Made by a program: the position numbers and the translations under genes
The notes under the pieces: model-generated
The model's input: only the letters and a program-made list of their open reading frames with translations
The model's database searches: none
What the model was told of the DNA's origin: nothing
In this document: piece by piece, positions 1,854-30,168 of the stretch
Position numbering within the stretch: the first letter of the stretch is position 1
Layout: each line of letters opens with the position of its first letter
From: an archaeon
GTDB lineage: Archaea > Iainarchaeota > Iainarchaeia > Iainarchaeales > GW2011-AR10
DNA length: 36,604 nt
Direction of reading: 5' to 3'
Assembly: GCA_030651515.1 (NCBI GenBank)
Contig: JAUSEO010000030.1
Coordinates: 1 to 36,604, forward strand

Positions 1854-1908
1854 AAAGTGTGTGAATATAAATGCTTTTTAAGCTATTAGTTTTGGGGTGT
1901 TTTTTGGC

Positions 1909-2316
1909 TTGACGCGCTATTCAAAGGGTTCTAATGCTGAGCGCGAGCTCATTAAAGTGCTTTTTGGCAAGGGCTTTAGCGTGGTCCGCGCCGCGGGTTC
2001 AGGCAAGACTTCCCTGCCATCCCCCGATATAGTGGCCCTTAGTTCGACGAAAAAACTGGCTTTTGAGTGCAAGGCCTGGGATTCCGAATACCTGTCCATT
2101 CCGGTTGAGCAGATAGAGGAGCAGCTTTCCTGGGCACTCCGTGCGGGGGCAGAGTTTTTCGTGGCATGGAAAATGCCCCGGAGCGGCTTTTTTTTCCTTG
2201 CGCCAACAGACTTTGTCCGCACCGAAAAAAGCTTTGCAATCACCAAAAAAACTGCCTGCGAGAAAGGCGTGCGCCTTGAAGTCTTGCTTGGGGAACAGGA
2301 GAGGCTCAAGGTTTAA
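1909..2316 (+). CDS. hjc: Holliday junction resolvase Hjc
   Basis: ORF 1897..2316. The TTG at 1909 preceded by GGGGTG is the likely start. RYSKGSNAERELIKVL...VVRAAGSG...PDIVAL...FECKAW is the Hjc motif set. Confidence 0.92.
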   Translation: MTRYSKGSNAERELIKVLFGKGFSVVRAAGSGKTSLPSPDIVALSSTKKLAFECKAWDSEYLSIPVEQIEEQLSWALRAGAEFFVAWKMPRSGFFFLAPTDFVRTEKSFAITKKTACEKGVRLEVLLGEQERLKV

Positions 2317-10273: not shown

Positions 10274-12727
10274 GTGGGGGTCATGAAGCGCGTTTTTGCA
10301 GCCGCAATTTTTTTACTCGTTTTTTTTTCCCTGAACGCGTTTTCCGGAATTGTGACTGACAGGGTTTTTGAAATATGTGACGTTGTGGAGGATAAGTGGA
10401 ACTTCAACCCCCCACAGAATTATGAGGAACCAGGCTACTCGTATAATGGCTCGTATGGTGAACGCGGCGAGATGAGCCCGTATGGGCTAGGAAAGTATAT
10501 TTTTTCAGATACTTATTCTTACCACTTTTTCAAGGAACAGGGAAACCCCAATTGGCAGGGAGACGGGGGCTTTAGCCATGTAGGCAATGATTTTGGCGGG
10601 CCTGAAACAAGTGTCGGGCTGTACCTCAACTGGGAAAGAAAGTTCGTGGTTGACGGTAAAAGAATTGACTCGGAATCGTTTGATGTGAATGAGTCACAAA
10701 GGCTTTTTCCTTTTCTAAGGGAAAGCTTTCCCACTTTTTTTGGCGGCAAAATCAGGAACATTCCCAACATCTACAACCCCGAACTTCTTGGAACTTTTTT
10801 TTATCTTATCCCAAATCCTAAGTGGCCCAACTATCAATGTCTCCAGTCGTGGATGGATTATGGTGATGGGCGTGGAGAAGTGCCGTATGGGCCGTATGTT
10901 TGCCCGGAGTACGATTATGAGCCTCCGTTACAGGTGGAAGTTGTCTGTCCGCGTGTGTGCGACCGGTACCCAATAGATTTTGCTGGTGACCTCGGGGTTT
11001 ATGGGCTTTTCCAAAACAAGGGTTTCCAGATAATTGACGACGAGTATAATCCATGCGTGGGCGTAACTGTCACAGAGTATGACATTACCTGTGAAGGCGC
11101 GCCGCCTCTTCCTGTTAAAGAGGGTGGGCCTTTGGACAGCTGGCAGATTGCTAGTGGCTATAATTTCAGGGTTGAAGGCGTGTGCGATGCCTGTGGAAAC
11201 GGCTACCGTGACAAGTTCTGTGAAAAAGGCGACATGTTTGAGGGCGCGCCATGCACATCGGATGGTGAAAGATATATACCTGGAAGCTGTGAGGGCGGGG
11301 AACAAGCCTGCAAGTACAATGATTATGAGCAGTGTGACGATGGAAATGGGCGGTGGGATGATGGTTGCTCCCCGTTGTGCATTCTGGACGACACGCGGAA
11401 ATGCGGTAACGGAATCCTTGACTCTGATGAGCAGTGCGAGATTTTTAACCCATGCCCGAACAGGCAGGCGTGCACGCTCAACTGCCAGTGTGGTGCCGTG
11501 TGCGGCAACGGCATCCCTGAAATTGGGGAAGACTGCGATGACGGCATAGTTGACCCTGATGACACGCACTTGAATGGCTCTGCTGACGATGACGGTATAT
11601 GCGTGATTGACGTGGAAAGGCGTCCGGAGTCCTGCAAGACTAATTCTTGCGGTGACGGTTACCTTGACCAGCGCGTAGAAGAGTGTGATGATTGGAATAA
11701 TTCTGATGGAGACGGTTGCAGCGCTTCGTGCGAGATAGAAGAGGGCCCTGTTTGTGGTGACGGGAACATTGAGCCGCCAGAACAATGTGAACAGAACAGT
11801 GATTGTTCCAGCGGTAATGTGTGCCAGAACTGCAAGTGTGTTGAGGAAGAGTTTTGCGGCAACGGCAACCCTGACCCAGGCGAGCAATGCGATGACGGCG
11901 TAGACACTGACACTTATTACACGGAAAACAAGGCTGACGATGACGGGATGTGCGTGATTGATGGCCAGAAAATGCAGGTGTCATGCATGGATAATTTTTG
12001 CGGTGACGGTTACTTGTTCGGGTCTAGGGAAGGGGGGTCAGAAAAATGTGATGACGGCAGTCACTGTGAAGACGGTAGTGTATGTGAAAATGATGTTGAG
12101 TGTGCCGGCATAGGCGGTGGTTTGTGCCTGCCAAGAGACAATGATGGTTGCAGTGCTTCCTGTGTCATTGAGTATTGTGGCGACCGGATTATACAGCCTC
12201 CGCGCGAGCAGTGCGAAGCAACCCCTGACTGTGGCCCTTTTGGTGGTGACTTGGTTTGCTTCCAGTGCCAGTGCGTTGAAGAGCTTGACGACTATTACCA
12301 GCTTGGAATTTCTTCTGAAAGCGTTTATGGGCTCGGCAACCCACTTGTCGCTACCTATAATCTGGATAGAACCGTTTCAGATGGCCAAGTGACGACAAAA
12401 CTACATTACTATATTTCTAATCTAAAGGGGGAAATAATTGGCGGGGAAACTGCCAAGGATATAACTTTTTTAAATGGCGAAACTGGTTTCTTGCATCTCT
12501 GGAATGACTTGCAGCTTTCATCTGAAAATGGCTTTCAGCCTGGCACATACATTTTGTTTGGCAGGGTTGAGCCGTTTGATGGGGAAAAATTCACTGCAAA
12601 CAACCATGCAAGCAAATACATTACAATAACCAGCCAGGAAGTTCAAGTGAACATCCCTGAAACAAACCTGTTGCTTGTTGTTGTGTCTGCCTTGGCGGTG
12701 GTTTTCATTGTCCGCAGAAAAAAGTGA
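10274..12727 (+). CDS. Large secreted Cys-rich surface protein (DUF4215/Myxococcus-type Cys-rich repeats) with C-terminal TM anchor
   Basis: 817 aa. Sec-like signal MKRVFAAAIFLLVFFSLNAFS, many C(G)DGxx...EQCDDG...DGCSxxC repeats, C-terminus IPETNLLLVVVSALAVVFIVRRKK. Confidence 0.9.
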   Translation: MGVMKRVFAAAIFLLVFFSLNAFSGIVTDRVFEICDVVEDKWNFNPPQNYEEPGYSYNGSYGERGEMSPYGLGKYIFSDTYSYHFFKEQGNPNWQGDGGFSHVGNDFGGPETSVGLYLNWERKFVVDGKRIDSESFDVNESQRLFPFLRESFPTFFGGKIRNIPNIYNPELLGTFFYLIPNPKWPNYQCLQSWMDYGDGRGEVPYGPYVCPEYDYEPPLQVEVVCPRVCDRYPIDFAGDLGVYGLFQNKGFQIIDDEYNPCVGVTVTEYDITCEGAPPLPVKEGGPLDSWQIASGYNFRVEGVCDACGNGYRDKFCEKGDMFEGAPCTSDGERYIPGSCEGGEQACKYNDYEQCDDGNGRWDDGCSPLCILDDTRKCGNGILDSDEQCEIFNPCPNRQACTLNCQCGAVCGNGIPEIGEDCDDGIVDPDDTHLNGSADDDGICVIDVERRPESCKTNSCGDGYLDQRVEECDDWNNSDGDGCSASCEIEEGPVCGDGNIEPPEQCEQNSDCSSGNVCQNCKCVEEEFCGNGNPDPGEQCDDGVDTDTYYTENKADDDGMCVIDGQKMQVSCMDNFCGDGYLFGSREGGSEKCDDGSHCEDGSVCENDVECAGIGGGLCLPRDNDGCSASCVIEYCGDRIIQPPREQCEATPDCGPFGGDLVCFQCQCVEELDDYYQLGISSESVYGLGNPLVATYNLDRTVSDGQVTTKLHYYISNLKGEIIGGETAKDITFLNGETGFLHLWNDLQLSSENGFQPGTYILFGRVEPFDGEKFTANNHASKYITITSQEVQVNIPETNLLLVVVSALAVVFIVRRKK

Positions 12728-24236: not shown

Positions 24237-25835
24237 TTGAAGCAAAGCGCAGCGTCAGTCATTCTTGAAGAAATAAGGTCCGGAAAGCTTTCCACCCAGT
24301 CTGAATTGAATAGTTTTCGGTTAAAGGTTTCGCGTGACTTTTCCCTTTCAAGCCTGCCGTCCAATGCTGAAATAATTTCTCTTGCGTCTTCTGCTGATAG
24401 AAAAAAATTCCGCGGCCTGCTTAGCATCAAGCCTACGCGCCGAAGTTCCGGGGTCACAGTGGTTGCAGTCATGACAAAGCCTGCTGGCTGTGTCGGAAAA
24501 TGCATTTTTTGCCCTTCTTCGCTGGTGCCTGGAAAAAAGACTCCAAAGAGTTATACTGGGCGTGAGCCTTCGACCATGCGCTCGATGATGTTCAACTATA
24601 ACCCTTACCTTGTTGTGCAGAACCGGCTTGAACAGTACATTGCTGCAAACAATTTTTCCCCAAAAATAGAGCTCATTTTGCAGGGTGGCACGTTTACTGC
24701 AGAGCCCTGGCATCGCCAGAAATATTTTGTCAAGCGCTGTTATGACGCGGTTCTTGGCTTTACTGCAAAAAATTTTTTGGAAGCAAAAAAACTCCTTGAG
24801 TCTTCAAGCCGCCGTGTTGTTGGATTGACGATTGAGACCCGGCCTGACTGGTGCATGGAGAAAGAAATCAACCGTATGCTTTTTCTTGGTGCAACGCGTG
24901 TTGAGCTTGGAGTACAGGTCCTCGATGACGGGGTTTACAAAAAAAACGTGCGCGGGCACCTGGTGAAAGATGTTGTAAAGTCAACTTGCCTTCTGCGCGA
25001 CTCGGCGTTCAAGGTTTGTTATCATCTCATGCCAGGTTTGTATGGTTCAACTCCTGAAATTGACTTGGATTCTTTCAGGCAGGTTTTTTCCGGCCCTGAC
25101 TTTAGGCCTGACATGGTGAAAATTTATCCATGCCTTGTCATAAAGGGCACGCCTCTTTACAGGCTGTGGGCGCAGGGGAAGTTTGAACCACTTTGCACTG
25201 AAGAGGCGGCTGACATGATAGTTGAACTAAAAAAAGCCATTCCGCCCTATGTGAGAATCATGCGCATTCAGCGCGACATTCCCTCAACGCTGGTTGATGG
25301 TGGCGTGAAAAAAACGAATTTGCGCCAGATTGTTGAAGAAAAAATGAAGAAAAAGGGGCTTAAATGCAGGTGCATCAGGTGCAGGGAAGCGGGGCTGAAT
25401 GCTTTGCGTGGAAATTTTTCTTTTTCAGAGCCGGAACTCTGTAGGCTTGACTATGAAGCCGGGGGTGGAAGAGAGGTTTTTTTGTCGTTTGAGGACAAGA
25501 AAAACGATTTGCTTTATTCTTTTTGCAGGTTCCGCGTGCCGCACGCACCGTTCAGGAAGGAAATCACTGCCAAAACAGGCCTTGTTCGGGAACTGCACGT
25601 GTATTCAACAGCTCTTGCGCTTGGTGAAACGCCTGGCGAGTCTGACTTTCAGCACAAAGGCCTTGGCACCCGCCTTGTAAAGGAAGCCGAAAGAATGGCT
25701 ATTGAAGAGTTCAATTTGGAGAAAATGGTGATAATTTCAGGCCTAGGGGTCCGGGAATTTTACCAAAAAAAACTGGGTTACAAGCCTGACGGGGCGTACA
25801 TGTCAAAGAACCTGAAAAAACCACTCAATTTATAA
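24237..25835 (+). CDS. elp3: Elp3-type radical SAM/GNAT tRNA U34 modification enzyme
   Basis: GCVGKCIFCPSS radical SAM motif, ILQGGTFTA, and a C-terminal GNAT-type segment QHKGLGTRLVKEAERMA. Confidence 0.97.
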   Translation: MKQSAASVILEEIRSGKLSTQSELNSFRLKVSRDFSLSSLPSNAEIISLASSADRKKFRGLLSIKPTRRSSGVTVVAVMTKPAGCVGKCIFCPSSLVPGKKTPKSYTGREPSTMRSMMFNYNPYLVVQNRLEQYIAANNFSPKIELILQGGTFTAEPWHRQKYFVKRCYDAVLGFTAKNFLEAKKLLESSSRRVVGLTIETRPDWCMEKEINRMLFLGATRVELGVQVLDDGVYKKNVRGHLVKDVVKSTCLLRDSAFKVCYHLMPGLYGSTPEIDLDSFRQVFSGPDFRPDMVKIYPCLVIKGTPLYRLWAQGKFEPLCTEEAADMIVELKKAIPPYVRIMRIQRDIPSTLVDGGVKKTNLRQIVEEKMKKKGLKCRCIRCREAGLNALRGNFSFSEPELCRLDYEAGGGREVFLSFEDKKNDLLYSFCRFRVPHAPFRKEITAKTGLVRELHVYSTALALGETPGESDFQHKGLGTRLVKEAERMAIEEFNLEKMVIISGLGVREFYQKKLGYKPDGAYMSKNLKKPLNL

Positions 25836-25858: not shown

Positions 25859-26206
25859 ATGGATAAGGTTTTTATCGCAAGTTTGGGTGTCGGAAAGGGC
25901 ACATGGGGCCATGTTGCAAGGATTATTTCTGACCAGGAATTTGACAAAAGGCTGCTTATTGCCACTGAATGGGTGAAGGAAAACTTTGTCCCCCCCAAGG
26001 AATGCGAATGGATTCTGATTAACAACCGCGCTGGCTTTGACGTCATAAAAGATGAAATAAAGTCCAAGCTCCCCAAGGGTGAGTTTTTGGTTTCACTTGT
26101 TTCAGGTTCTGGAAAAGAACACATGGCACTCATTGCGGCTTTCAGGGAAATCGGCGTTGACTACAAGCTTGTTACCCTGACTGGTGACGGCGTCAAATAC
26201 TACTAG
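25859..26206 (+). CDS. Stand-alone CARF-like Rossmann-fold protein (115 aa), function unknown
   Basis: MDKVFIASLGVGKGTWGHVARII...FDKRLLIATEW...FLVSLVSGSGKEHMALIAAFREIGVDYKLVTLTGDG: beta-LG start, alternating beta/alpha, and a C-terminal S-G-S-G-K helix as in CARF-like folds. The CDS is certain; the family is tentative. Confidence 0.6.
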   Translation: MDKVFIASLGVGKGTWGHVARIISDQEFDKRLLIATEWVKENFVPPKECEWILINNRAGFDVIKDEIKSKLPKGEFLVSLVSGSGKEHMALIAAFREIGVDYKLVTLTGDGVKYY

Positions 26207-26225
26207 GCAAAAGGGGTTATTTTTT

Positions 26226-26594
26226 TTGGCAGACCTGGTCCTCCTTGTCCTGCTCTCCCTGGCAATGCTTCTTGGAATTGCCGCTTTTTTTCTCCTGCAA
26301 AAAATTTCTGTGCTTGAACAAAAAATTTCCAGCCTGTTGTTTGACAAGTCAAGTTCTGCCGTGCGGTTTGGAAAAATGTCAGAGCAATTAATGCCTTTTT
26401 CCGGCAGGACTCCTTTTGCTCCTGAAAATTTCCGCTTCATTGGAGCGCCTATTGACGGCATTGCCTTTGAAGACGACAGGATTGTTTTTTGCGAGTTCAA
26501 GTCCGGTGGCGCTGTCCTTTCGGAGCGGCAGAAAAAAATCAAGAAACTGGTTGAAGAAAAAAAAGTGCGCTGGGAAGAAGTCAGGCTTTCCTAG
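26226..26594 (+). CDS. Membrane-anchored endonuclease distantly related to archaeal Holliday junction resolvase (COG4741/Endonuc_Holl-like)
   Basis: TTG 26226 preceded by AGGGGTTA. N-terminal TM LADLVLLVLLSLAMLLGIAAFFLL, then FIGAPIDGIAFEDDRIVFCEFKSGGAVLSERQKKIKKLVEEKKVRWEEV with the D...ExK nuclease core. Confidence 0.85.
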   Translation: MADLVLLVLLSLAMLLGIAAFFLLQKISVLEQKISSLLFDKSSSAVRFGKMSEQLMPFSGRTPFAPENFRFIGAPIDGIAFEDDRIVFCEFKSGGAVLSERQKKIKKLVEEKKVRWEEVRLS

Positions 26595-27634
26595 TAATTC
26601 ATCCTGTAACGCAACAGGCACGCGGTTCCGCCAAGGCCGCTGAGTTTTTTCCCTGCCTCTGTTTTTGAAGAAAGTATGTGGATTTTTCCGCCGTTTTGCT
26701 CCACCATTGCCAGGAGTTCTTCTGCGTGCTTCCTGTTTTTCAAAAGGTAATCATCGCTTAAGAGAAAGTGTTCGACTGCGCCTGCCTGGATTGCTTTTTC
26801 AGAGTCTTGTGAACCAACCACTGCCATGCCGCTTCCGCGTCCCAGTTCTTCAAGGATTTTTTCCACAAGCTTTGTTTCTTTTGCCAGTTGTGACTGTGCA
26901 ATTATTTCCTCTATTGCACCGCTTTTTATAAGCTCGTTTAATCCTGTCACTCCGACTGAGTCAGTGTGCAGGTAAAAGGCTGGGAGTTTTATCCTCTTGT
27001 CTTCGAGAAATTTTTTGAAATTGTCTTTTGTAAAGCCCGGGCCTGCAAAAATTATTTTTTGTGGTGCTTCTTCAACCACTTTTTTTGCTATTGTTTCAAA
27101 GAAAACGTCTTTTTTTTCCTGGGTGAAAAACATTTTCCCGCTTTTTTGCGACCGTATGCGCGCCTTTGTCTCAAAACCCTTTTCTGCAAGCAATGCGATT
27201 TCTGCTTCCTCGTCATCAAGCACTACGATGAGTGTTTTTCCTCTTCCTGAAGCCTGTTTGGCTTCTTCGAGTCGTTCAACCTGGTAATTTTTGAGGGCTT
27301 TTTTTTTCACAAGGGTTTCTTTTGAGGGAAAAATCTCAAGTGAGTGGTGTGCCTTCATTTCCACCAGTTCAACCGGCTTTCCACCTACTATTACCCCAAG
27401 TACCCTTAGGTGCCCGCTTGACTCGTGGAATTCTATGCGCTCTGCCTCGATTTCGTAGTAAACGTTTTCCTTGGTTACCTCCATGCCTTCCTCTTTGGGC
27501 TTTATTTTTCTCTCAGTCTTAGCGCACACCACGTCCTGCGGCTCAATTATTCTTTCCAGGTGCCACAGGTCATCCATGTTGTCCGGCACGACCTCGAAAA
27601 AATTGTTTTTCCTGTCAATCTTCAAAATGCGCAT
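26591..27634 (-). CDS. pelA: Pelota (Dom34), ribosome rescue factor
   Basis: MRILKIDRKNNFFEVVPDNMDDLWHLERIIEPQDVV, IIFAGPGFTKDNFKKFL, GRGSGMAVVG and C-terminal GGTACLLRY. Confidence 0.96.
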   Translation of the reverse strand: MRILKIDRKNNFFEVVPDNMDDLWHLERIIEPQDVVCAKTERKIKPKEEGMEVTKENVYYEIEAERIEFHESSGHLRVLGVIVGGKPVELVEMKAHHSLEIFPSKETLVKKKALKNYQVERLEEAKQASGRGKTLIVVLDDEEAEIALLAEKGFETKARIRSQKSGKMFFTQEKKDVFFETIAKKVVEEAPQKIIFAGPGFTKDNFKKFLEDKRIKLPAFYLHTDSVGVTGLNELIKSGAIEEIIAQSQLAKETKLVEKILEELGRGSGMAVVGSQDSEKAIQAGAVEHFLLSDDYLLKNRKHAEELLAMVEQNGGKIHILSSKTEAGKKLSGLGGTACLLRYRMNY

Positions 27635-28851: not shown

Positions 28852-30168
28852 ATGTTTTCCAAGAAAGGGCAGGGCGCGCTTGAATTATTGCTTTTAATCG
28901 GTGGGGCAGTACTGGTTTCAGTTATCGCTATAACCATAATTACTTCTGCAAGCGAACCGGCCGGCCAGCAGACAACAGGGAATTCTGCAGAAGCCATTTG
29001 CAGGACAAGGGGAATCGGTGGCCCATCCAGCTGCACTGGCCAAGTTACCATAAATAAGCGGGTTTTTGAGTGTAAGATTGACCCGCCAGGCAGTGGGCAA
29101 TGCACAGCTTCTTTTGGGGAAGAGGCAGGGGAATGCGGTGATGGCAAGTTGAATCCCGGGGAAGACTGTGATGGCAGTGAGTTTAATAGCGCTACTTGTT
29201 TGTCTGTTACCCAAAATGAGGATCCGCCCAGGGACGGGTCAATAGAGTGTTTTCCTCCTGAGGCCATAAACGGGTGTAACTTTGACATTTCTGACTGCAC
29301 CTGTGGAGATGGCATTAAAAATGGTGGCGATGACTGTGATGGAATTGATTTGGGTGGAGAAAATTGTTACAATCTTACTAGAAAAGACGGCGAGCTTGGT
29401 TGTTATCCTCCTGGCACTCTAAATACTTTTTGCACGTTTGATACTTCTGGCTGCAACATTGACATAGTCTGCGGTGATGGAAAAATTGGTTCTAGCGAGC
29501 AGTGTGATGATGGTGAACAGCCTCCGGATAATGGTGATGGTTGTAGCTCAACTTGCCAACTTGAGGTAAATTATTTCTGCCAAGGAGAGCCAAGCGAGTG
29601 TGGCCTAGAAGTAGATAGTTGTATTCCTCTGAGTGGAAGTGGAACTAACATTTATTTCCTAACGCAAGATGTGAGTACCCCGGATGCATACAGCTACTGC
29701 TTTTCAATAGCCTCACCTGGTATAACACTTGACTGCAAAGGCAACACCATTAATGGTGGATCAAGTGATGAAGGTGGAATAAGAGTTAATAGTACTGCTT
29801 CAAACTCGGTTGTAAGGAACTGTGACATAATTGCCGAGGGTTCTTTTAACGGTATTCAGGTTAGAGGAAACTCTAGAGAAAACGCTTCAAATGTCAAGTT
29901 GGAAAACAATACTATACATGTTAATGGCACCGGGAAAGCCATATTTTTGGAATCATATGTTACTAATGCCCTGCTTATCGGAAACGACGTGTGTGGTGGA
30001 ACCACAGACAAGTCAATCGTCATAAACAATGCGGGCAATCCGCAGGGCCAGTCCTCTGGTAATACATGTGCTGTGGATTTTTGCAGCCACGGTAACCCAA
30101 ACAGCGGGGTTTGCAAGAATATTGTAGGCGATAATGGCAACAACGACTGCGACCTTCAATGTCCATGA
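28852..30168 (+). CDS. Surface protein with class III (prepilin-like) N-terminus, DUF4215-type Cys-rich repeats and a C-terminal beta-helix-like region
   Basis: MFSKKGQGALELLLLIGGAVLVSVIAITII; CGDGKIGSSEQCDDGEQPPDNGDGCSSTC; ITLDCKGNTINGGSSDEGGIRV. Confidence 0.9.
   Translation: MFSKKGQGALELLLLIGGAVLVSVIAITIITSASEPAGQQTTGNSAEAICRTRGIGGPSSCTGQVTINKRVFECKIDPPGSGQCTASFGEEAGECGDGKLNPGEDCDGSEFNSATCLSVTQNEDPPRDGSIECFPPEAINGCNFDISDCTCGDGIKNGGDDCDGIDLGGENCYNLTRKDGELGCYPPGTLNTFCTFDTSGCNIDIVCGDGKIGSSEQCDDGEQPPDNGDGCSSTCQLEVNYFCQGEPSECGLEVDSCIPLSGSGTNIYFLTQDVSTPDAYSYCFSIASPGITLDCKGNTINGGSSDEGGIRVNSTASNSVVRNCDIIAEGSFNGIQVRGNSRENASNVKLENNTIHVNGTGKAIFLESYVTNALLIGNDVCGGTTDKSIVINNAGNPQGQSSGNTCAVDFCSHGNPNSGVCKNIVGDNGNNDCDLQCP

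Follow-up and report, generated by a model that had tools for sequence, protein, structure and literature searches.

CARF domains are the modules through which type III CRISPR immunity senses nucleotides, and to our knowledge, nearly all characterized ones receive cyclic oligoadenylates (cOA) made by CRISPR systems. In the window, by which we mean the whole 36,604-nucleotide stretch of archaeal DNA analyzed here, a 115-amino-acid protein had been read as CARF-like and, together with the membrane-anchored nuclease encoded just behind it, proposed to form a sensor/effector unit. The questions raised by this locus are whether the small protein has a CARF fold, whether the nuclease is its partner, and what kind of signal it would receive.

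Layout of the locus

Gene A (positions 25859 to 26206, forward strand) encodes the 115-residue, single-domain protein, and gene B (26226 to 26594, forward strand) encodes a minimal PD-(D/E)XK nuclease with an N-terminal membrane anchor. Both neighbors of the pair are conserved: upstream lies the gene for Elp3, a tRNA-modifying enzyme with radical SAM and GNAT domains (24237 to 25835, forward strand), and downstream is the convergent gene for Pelota, with eRF1 domains 1 to 3 (26591 to 27634, reverse strand). Only 23 nt separate Elp3 from gene A in the window, while the equivalent place in most relatives is occupied by a further gene, called W here. Gene B ends at 26594 and has two candidate starts, a TTG at 26226, 19 nt past the stop codon of gene A, and a GTG at 26184, which would put 23 nt of gene B inside gene A. 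The TTG start appears plausible because the homologues begin at the hydrophobic helix, and the GTG stays an alternative.

Gene A homologues were found in 35 of 57 near relatives, and dN/dS against a congener was 0.075 for gene A and 0.13 for gene B. The coordinates, the homologues, and these ratios bear out the two open reading frames of the original prediction, and judged by sequence comparison, both are real genes, each under purifying selection. Cotranscription of the two is likely. Elsewhere in the window, two long Cys-rich proteins (10274 to 12727 and 28852 to 30168, forward strand) carry repeated CGDG...EQCDDG motifs and are probably surface proteins.

Gene A has the fold and motifs of a CARF protein

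An AlphaFold2 model of the gene A product (m514ace948cc2), built from an alignment of 75 sequences, had a pLDDT of 96.7 and a pTM of 0.89. Strands are modeled at residues 3 to 8, 30 to 35, 50 to 53, 75 to 79, 102 to 108, and 111 to 114, with helices in between, and the resulting element order b-a-b-a-b-a-b-a-b-b with a terminal hairpin places the six predicted strands in CARF order, which is the published definition of the CARF core topology (PMC4012209). When the model was searched against the PDB, ranks 1 to 43 were all CARF proteins, and the first non-CARF match, UBA5, came at rank 44. Can2 (8q3y) was the best match (E value of 2.2e-5), and Csa3, Sso2081, Csm6, Cam1, Cdn1, Cad1, and VC1899 were among the top 43. 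Structure prediction, which had been suggested as a check, thus gave a CARF topology rather than a mismatching fold.

Profile comparisons pointed in the same direction. With hhalign, gene A aligned to a set of stand-alone CARF proteins from Thermococcales at 9.9e-6, to another CARF set at 0.0018, and weakly, at 0.022, to the CARF set of Csm6. CARF, Csx1, and Csm6 models made up 17 of the 25 matching families listed in a PADLOC scan of the 75 homologues (best E value of 7.1e-6); these CARF matches were weak, and the window's own protein matched none of the PADLOC CARF, Csx1, or Csm6 models. Scans of the window protein and the 75 homologues against Pfam and NCBIfam gave no real family, a PDB sequence search with gene A returned nothing, and a BFVD fold search returned only small uncharacterized viral proteins and was uninformative.

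The invariant residues of gene A fall mainly after strand 1 and strand 4, where the ligand pockets of CARF domains lie (PMC4012209). The first motif, L9-G-x-G-K-G-T-W16-G-H, follows strand 1 and has an invariant G12 and W16 and a near-invariant K13, G14, G17, and H18 in the homologue alignment. In the second, S82-G-S-G-K86-E-H88, which follows strand 4, S82, G83, G85, E87, and H88 are invariant and K86 is near-invariant (at least 90%). The spacing of S82 and K86 fits the [ST]XXX[RK] part of the CARF signature [DN]X[ST]XXX[RK]; where that signature calls for [DN], the window protein has a leucine, L80. TtCsm6 and TTHB144 need the lysine equivalent to K86 (K137 and K94, respectively) to bind cA4. 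Open frames across the homologues are all of single-domain size.

Fold, profiles, and motif spacing agree, and on the model and the alignments together, we assign gene A as a predicted CARF protein, as had been done by eye. CARF dimers whose structures are known suggest that it would homodimerize and that the strand-1 LGxGKGTWGH and strand-4 SGSGKEH motifs would form a pocket for a nucleotide-type ligand.

Gene B is an ordinary COG4741 nuclease with its own distribution

The COG4741 family was described in 2005 as having an N-terminal transmembrane helix, an E-xD-ExK motif, and a nuclease domain predicted to be cytosolic (PMC1189080). Gene B matches the corresponding Pfam model, PF10107 (Endonuc_Holl), with an E value of 3.5e-19, has a 19-residue N-terminal stretch with a mean Kyte-Doolittle hydropathy of 2.9, indicative of a transmembrane helix, and retains an intact E-xD-ExK core in which E53, D77, E90, and K92 are invariant in 23 homologues; the window protein reads EFK where the family has E(V/I)K. 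The family assignment, the membrane helix, and the nuclease core of the original prediction are all upheld by these data, and gene B is an ordinary family member with no notable difference. Its model (pLDDT of 84.7) had Hjc and VRR_NUC proteins as its best, weak fold matches (E values of 0.06 to 0.2). A separate open reading frame at 1897 to 2316 (forward strand) resembles the canonical archaeal Holliday junction resolvase Hjc by eye and is distinct from gene B.

Occurrence was tallied over 92 genomes of the phylum Diapherotrites/Iainarchaeota that are 60 to 99% complete, so some absences may be assembly gaps. Gene A is present in 51 and gene B in 70 of them; outside the phylum, gene A occurs in Methanofastidiosales, Woesearchaeota, and others. 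Of the 41 genomes that have both, 38 have gene B within 1 kb behind gene A on the same strand, and the proposed adjacency therefore holds within the order. Presence of the two genes is nevertheless uncorrelated over the 92 genomes (41 with both, 10 with only A, 29 with only B, and 12 with neither; p=0.33), within the order (41/9/24/6; p=1.0), and at the genus level (p=0.72). In genomes with gene B that lack gene A, gene B mostly still lies just behind Elp3, with a gap that is commonly 100 to 190 nt, and outside the order (Woesearchaeota, Nanoarchaeota, Methanofastidiosum, and MAGs labeled Thermococci), no gene B adjoined gene A, the outcome that had been named beforehand as refuting the pair. 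Because presence is independent, gene B keeps its place without gene A, and gene A persists in genomes without gene B, the pairing is positional and not obligate. The co-occurrence test thus speaks against an obligate unit, and the earlier step from adjacency to a functional pairing was premature. Gene B would be a membrane-anchored PD-(D/E)XK nuclease of the Elp3-Pelota neighborhood that is maintained separately from gene A.

The correlated partner of gene A is a putative winged-helix gene

The partner whose presence correlates with that of gene A across relatives is W, not the adjacent nuclease. W is a gene of about 102 codons in the roughly 400-nt gap between Elp3 and gene A at most Iainarchaeota loci, and its members match the winged-helix Pfam models PadR, HxlR, HTH_45, and TrmB weakly but consistently (1e-4 to 1e-2). 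Counting strong W matches, 38 of the 92 genomes have both genes, 13 only A, 5 only W, and 36 neither (Fisher p=1.3e-9; such p-values are optimistic because relatives share ancestry), and the association holds at the genus level (p=0.0099), the one adjustment for phylogeny in these counts. In 35 of the 38 genomes, W is the gene immediately before gene A and shares its strand; the median gap is 78 nt. In another family of the class (genome G091), the two genes are arranged tail to tail, neither is adjacent to Elp3 or gene B, and a gene that is GatE-like by eye lies beside them. Two MAGs labeled Thermococci have a different, unrelated winged-helix-turn-helix (wHTH) gene 21 to 22 nt upstream of gene A, matching HTH_24 at 1.8e-7 in one of them.

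Genomes G053 and G015 have W but not gene A, and a tblastn search of them detected no remnant of gene A. With W absent beside gene A in the window and from 13 of the phylum's 51 A-bearing genomes, it can explain only part of the picture. Elsewhere in the window's genome, which is 73% complete, there were just weak, generic wHTH matches.

CRISPR and cyclase genes are rare in genomes with gene A

Cas10 was found in 1 of the 51 A-bearing genomes of the phylum (and below the cutoff in 1 more) and in 2 of 36 other A-bearing genomes, giving 3 of 87 overall; none was found in the window's own genome at its 73% completeness. Cas1 was above the cutoff in 4 of the 51 phylum genomes, and DAC, the c-di-AMP cyclase family, was also found in 4 of the 51, all in one family. 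We rejected CRISPR-made cOA as a candidate ligand on the near absence of Cas10 and Cas1, and c-di-AMP on the confinement of DAC to those few genomes. With both Cas10 and DAC so rare, Cas10-made cOA or c-di-AMP is an unlikely ligand of gene A in most hosts, and gene A is a member of an archaeal CARF family that is independent of CRISPR.

Gene neighborhoods outside the order

In Woesearchaeota, the frequent neighbors of gene A are Orc1/Cdc6, a methyltransferase, and a conserved 150-amino-acid protein without a clear Pfam match. At L088, L091, L110, and other woesearchaeotal loci, the vicinity of gene A includes this protein of about 150 amino acids and the methyltransferase, and Orc1/Cdc6 often flanks gene A from the opposite side. 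By eye, the small protein resembles a winged helix; Pfam gave no support for an identity as a ribosomal protein. In Methanofastidiosum, gene A is found with an aminotransferase and V-ATPase subunits. Another stand-alone CARF-like protein, of about 160 amino acids and with the sequence LGRSTWAMIN...DITSGRKALVA, occurs in the class that includes the Methanofastidiosum relative G096 (loci L133, L136 to L139, L141, L142, L144, L145, L147, and L148). At L133 and L144, the gene next to it reads as a PIN-domain gene by eye, and a second CARF pair is possible.

Discussion

The reading that we consider probable, with some reserve, is that gene A encodes a CRISPR-independent, single-domain CARF ligand sensor that was ancestrally part of a split Csa3-like CARF/wHTH regulator. 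Csa3 and MM_0565 are CARF-wHTH transcription regulators (PMC7465815), and the fold search placed Csa3 among the top matches of gene A. In those proteins, CARF domain and wHTH are in one polypeptide, whereas here they are encoded by separate genes with no CRISPR link, and in the window, the wHTH beside gene A is missing altogether. We interpret the ancestral unit as a split regulator of the Csa3 type because in most relatives within the phylum, the gene immediately before gene A is a separate one for a wHTH protein; the ancestral order would have been Elp3-W-A-B-Pelota, with A sensing and W binding DNA. Dimerization, ligand binding, and signaling through W are parts of this best explanation that we infer. 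In the window, gene A would work by itself, together with a wHTH protein whose gene lies elsewhere, or through binding or turnover of its ligand.

What the ligand might be is a more speculative matter. An RNA-end signal is a reasonable but unproven candidate because of the precedent of RtcR and the Elp3 and Pelota surroundings: the CARF domain of RtcR answers to RNA damage and binds RNA with 2',3'-cyclic phosphate ends, not cOA (PMC9650030). As a possible, though doubtful, extension, the split CARF/winged-helix regulator would respond to a nucleotide signal other than cOA, for example the 2',3'-cyclic-phosphate RNA ends that arise when tRNA is damaged or ribosomes stall, and would serve translation quality control next to Elp3 and Pelota; it would then be a CRISPR-independent branch of CARF signaling in archaea. 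A direct counterpart of the RtcR CARF domain, sensing RNA ends or tRNA and ribosome damage in the service of translation quality control, seems to us rather unlikely. The RtcR CARF domain (PF06956) is, like gene A, a CARF outside CRISPR, and it is tied to translation and RNA repair; the conserved Elp3 and Pelota neighbors and the GatE-like gene adjoining A and W in G091 would fit such a role. However, RtcR carries its CARF domain fused to a sigma-54 AAA+ activator and usually has no counterpart of the basic strand-4 residue that the single-domain gene A product keeps as K86. Moreover, Elp3 and Pelota are near universal in archaea, gene order may persist without function, and the contexts of gene A in Methanofastidiosum and Woesearchaeota are mixed.

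A comparably low probability is given to the possibility that gene A is a stand-alone ring nuclease resembling Crn1 or Csx15/16/20 that destroys a cyclic oligonucleotide, for example one from invaders or from an unrecognized cyclase. As a single-domain CARF protein of ring nuclease size, it has Sso2081 (Crn1) among its best fold matches; Sso2081 and Csx15/16/20 are likewise stand-alone, small CARF-like Rossmann proteins, and Sso2081 also has a strand-4 lysine. W16, H88, and K86 recall W14 and H132 of ToCsm6 and K106 of Sso2081, as matched by motif position only. However, these ring nucleases reside in type III CRISPR loci, whereas gene A is found in genomes almost without Cas10 and is retained in conserved housekeeping neighborhoods.

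A split version of Can2/Card1, in which gene A senses a cyclic nucleotide and activates the nuclease, is improbable: the top fold match of gene A is a CARF protein with a PD-(D/E)XK domain and an intact nuclease of that superfamily lies right behind gene A within the order, but Can2/Card1 is fused and cA4 activated, whereas here the genes are separate and uncorrelated in presence, gene B is of the membrane-anchored type and stays beside Elp3 without gene A, the two are not neighbors outside the order, known cyclases are nearly absent, and COG4741 is widespread without gene A, both in control genomes and in the literature (PMC1189080).

The gene A product is small and compact, which makes identification of its ligand directly testable. 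A widespread single-domain CARF protein in small archaeal genomes that lack Cas10 points either to another archaeal signal or to CARF sensing that is older and broader than its use by CRISPR.
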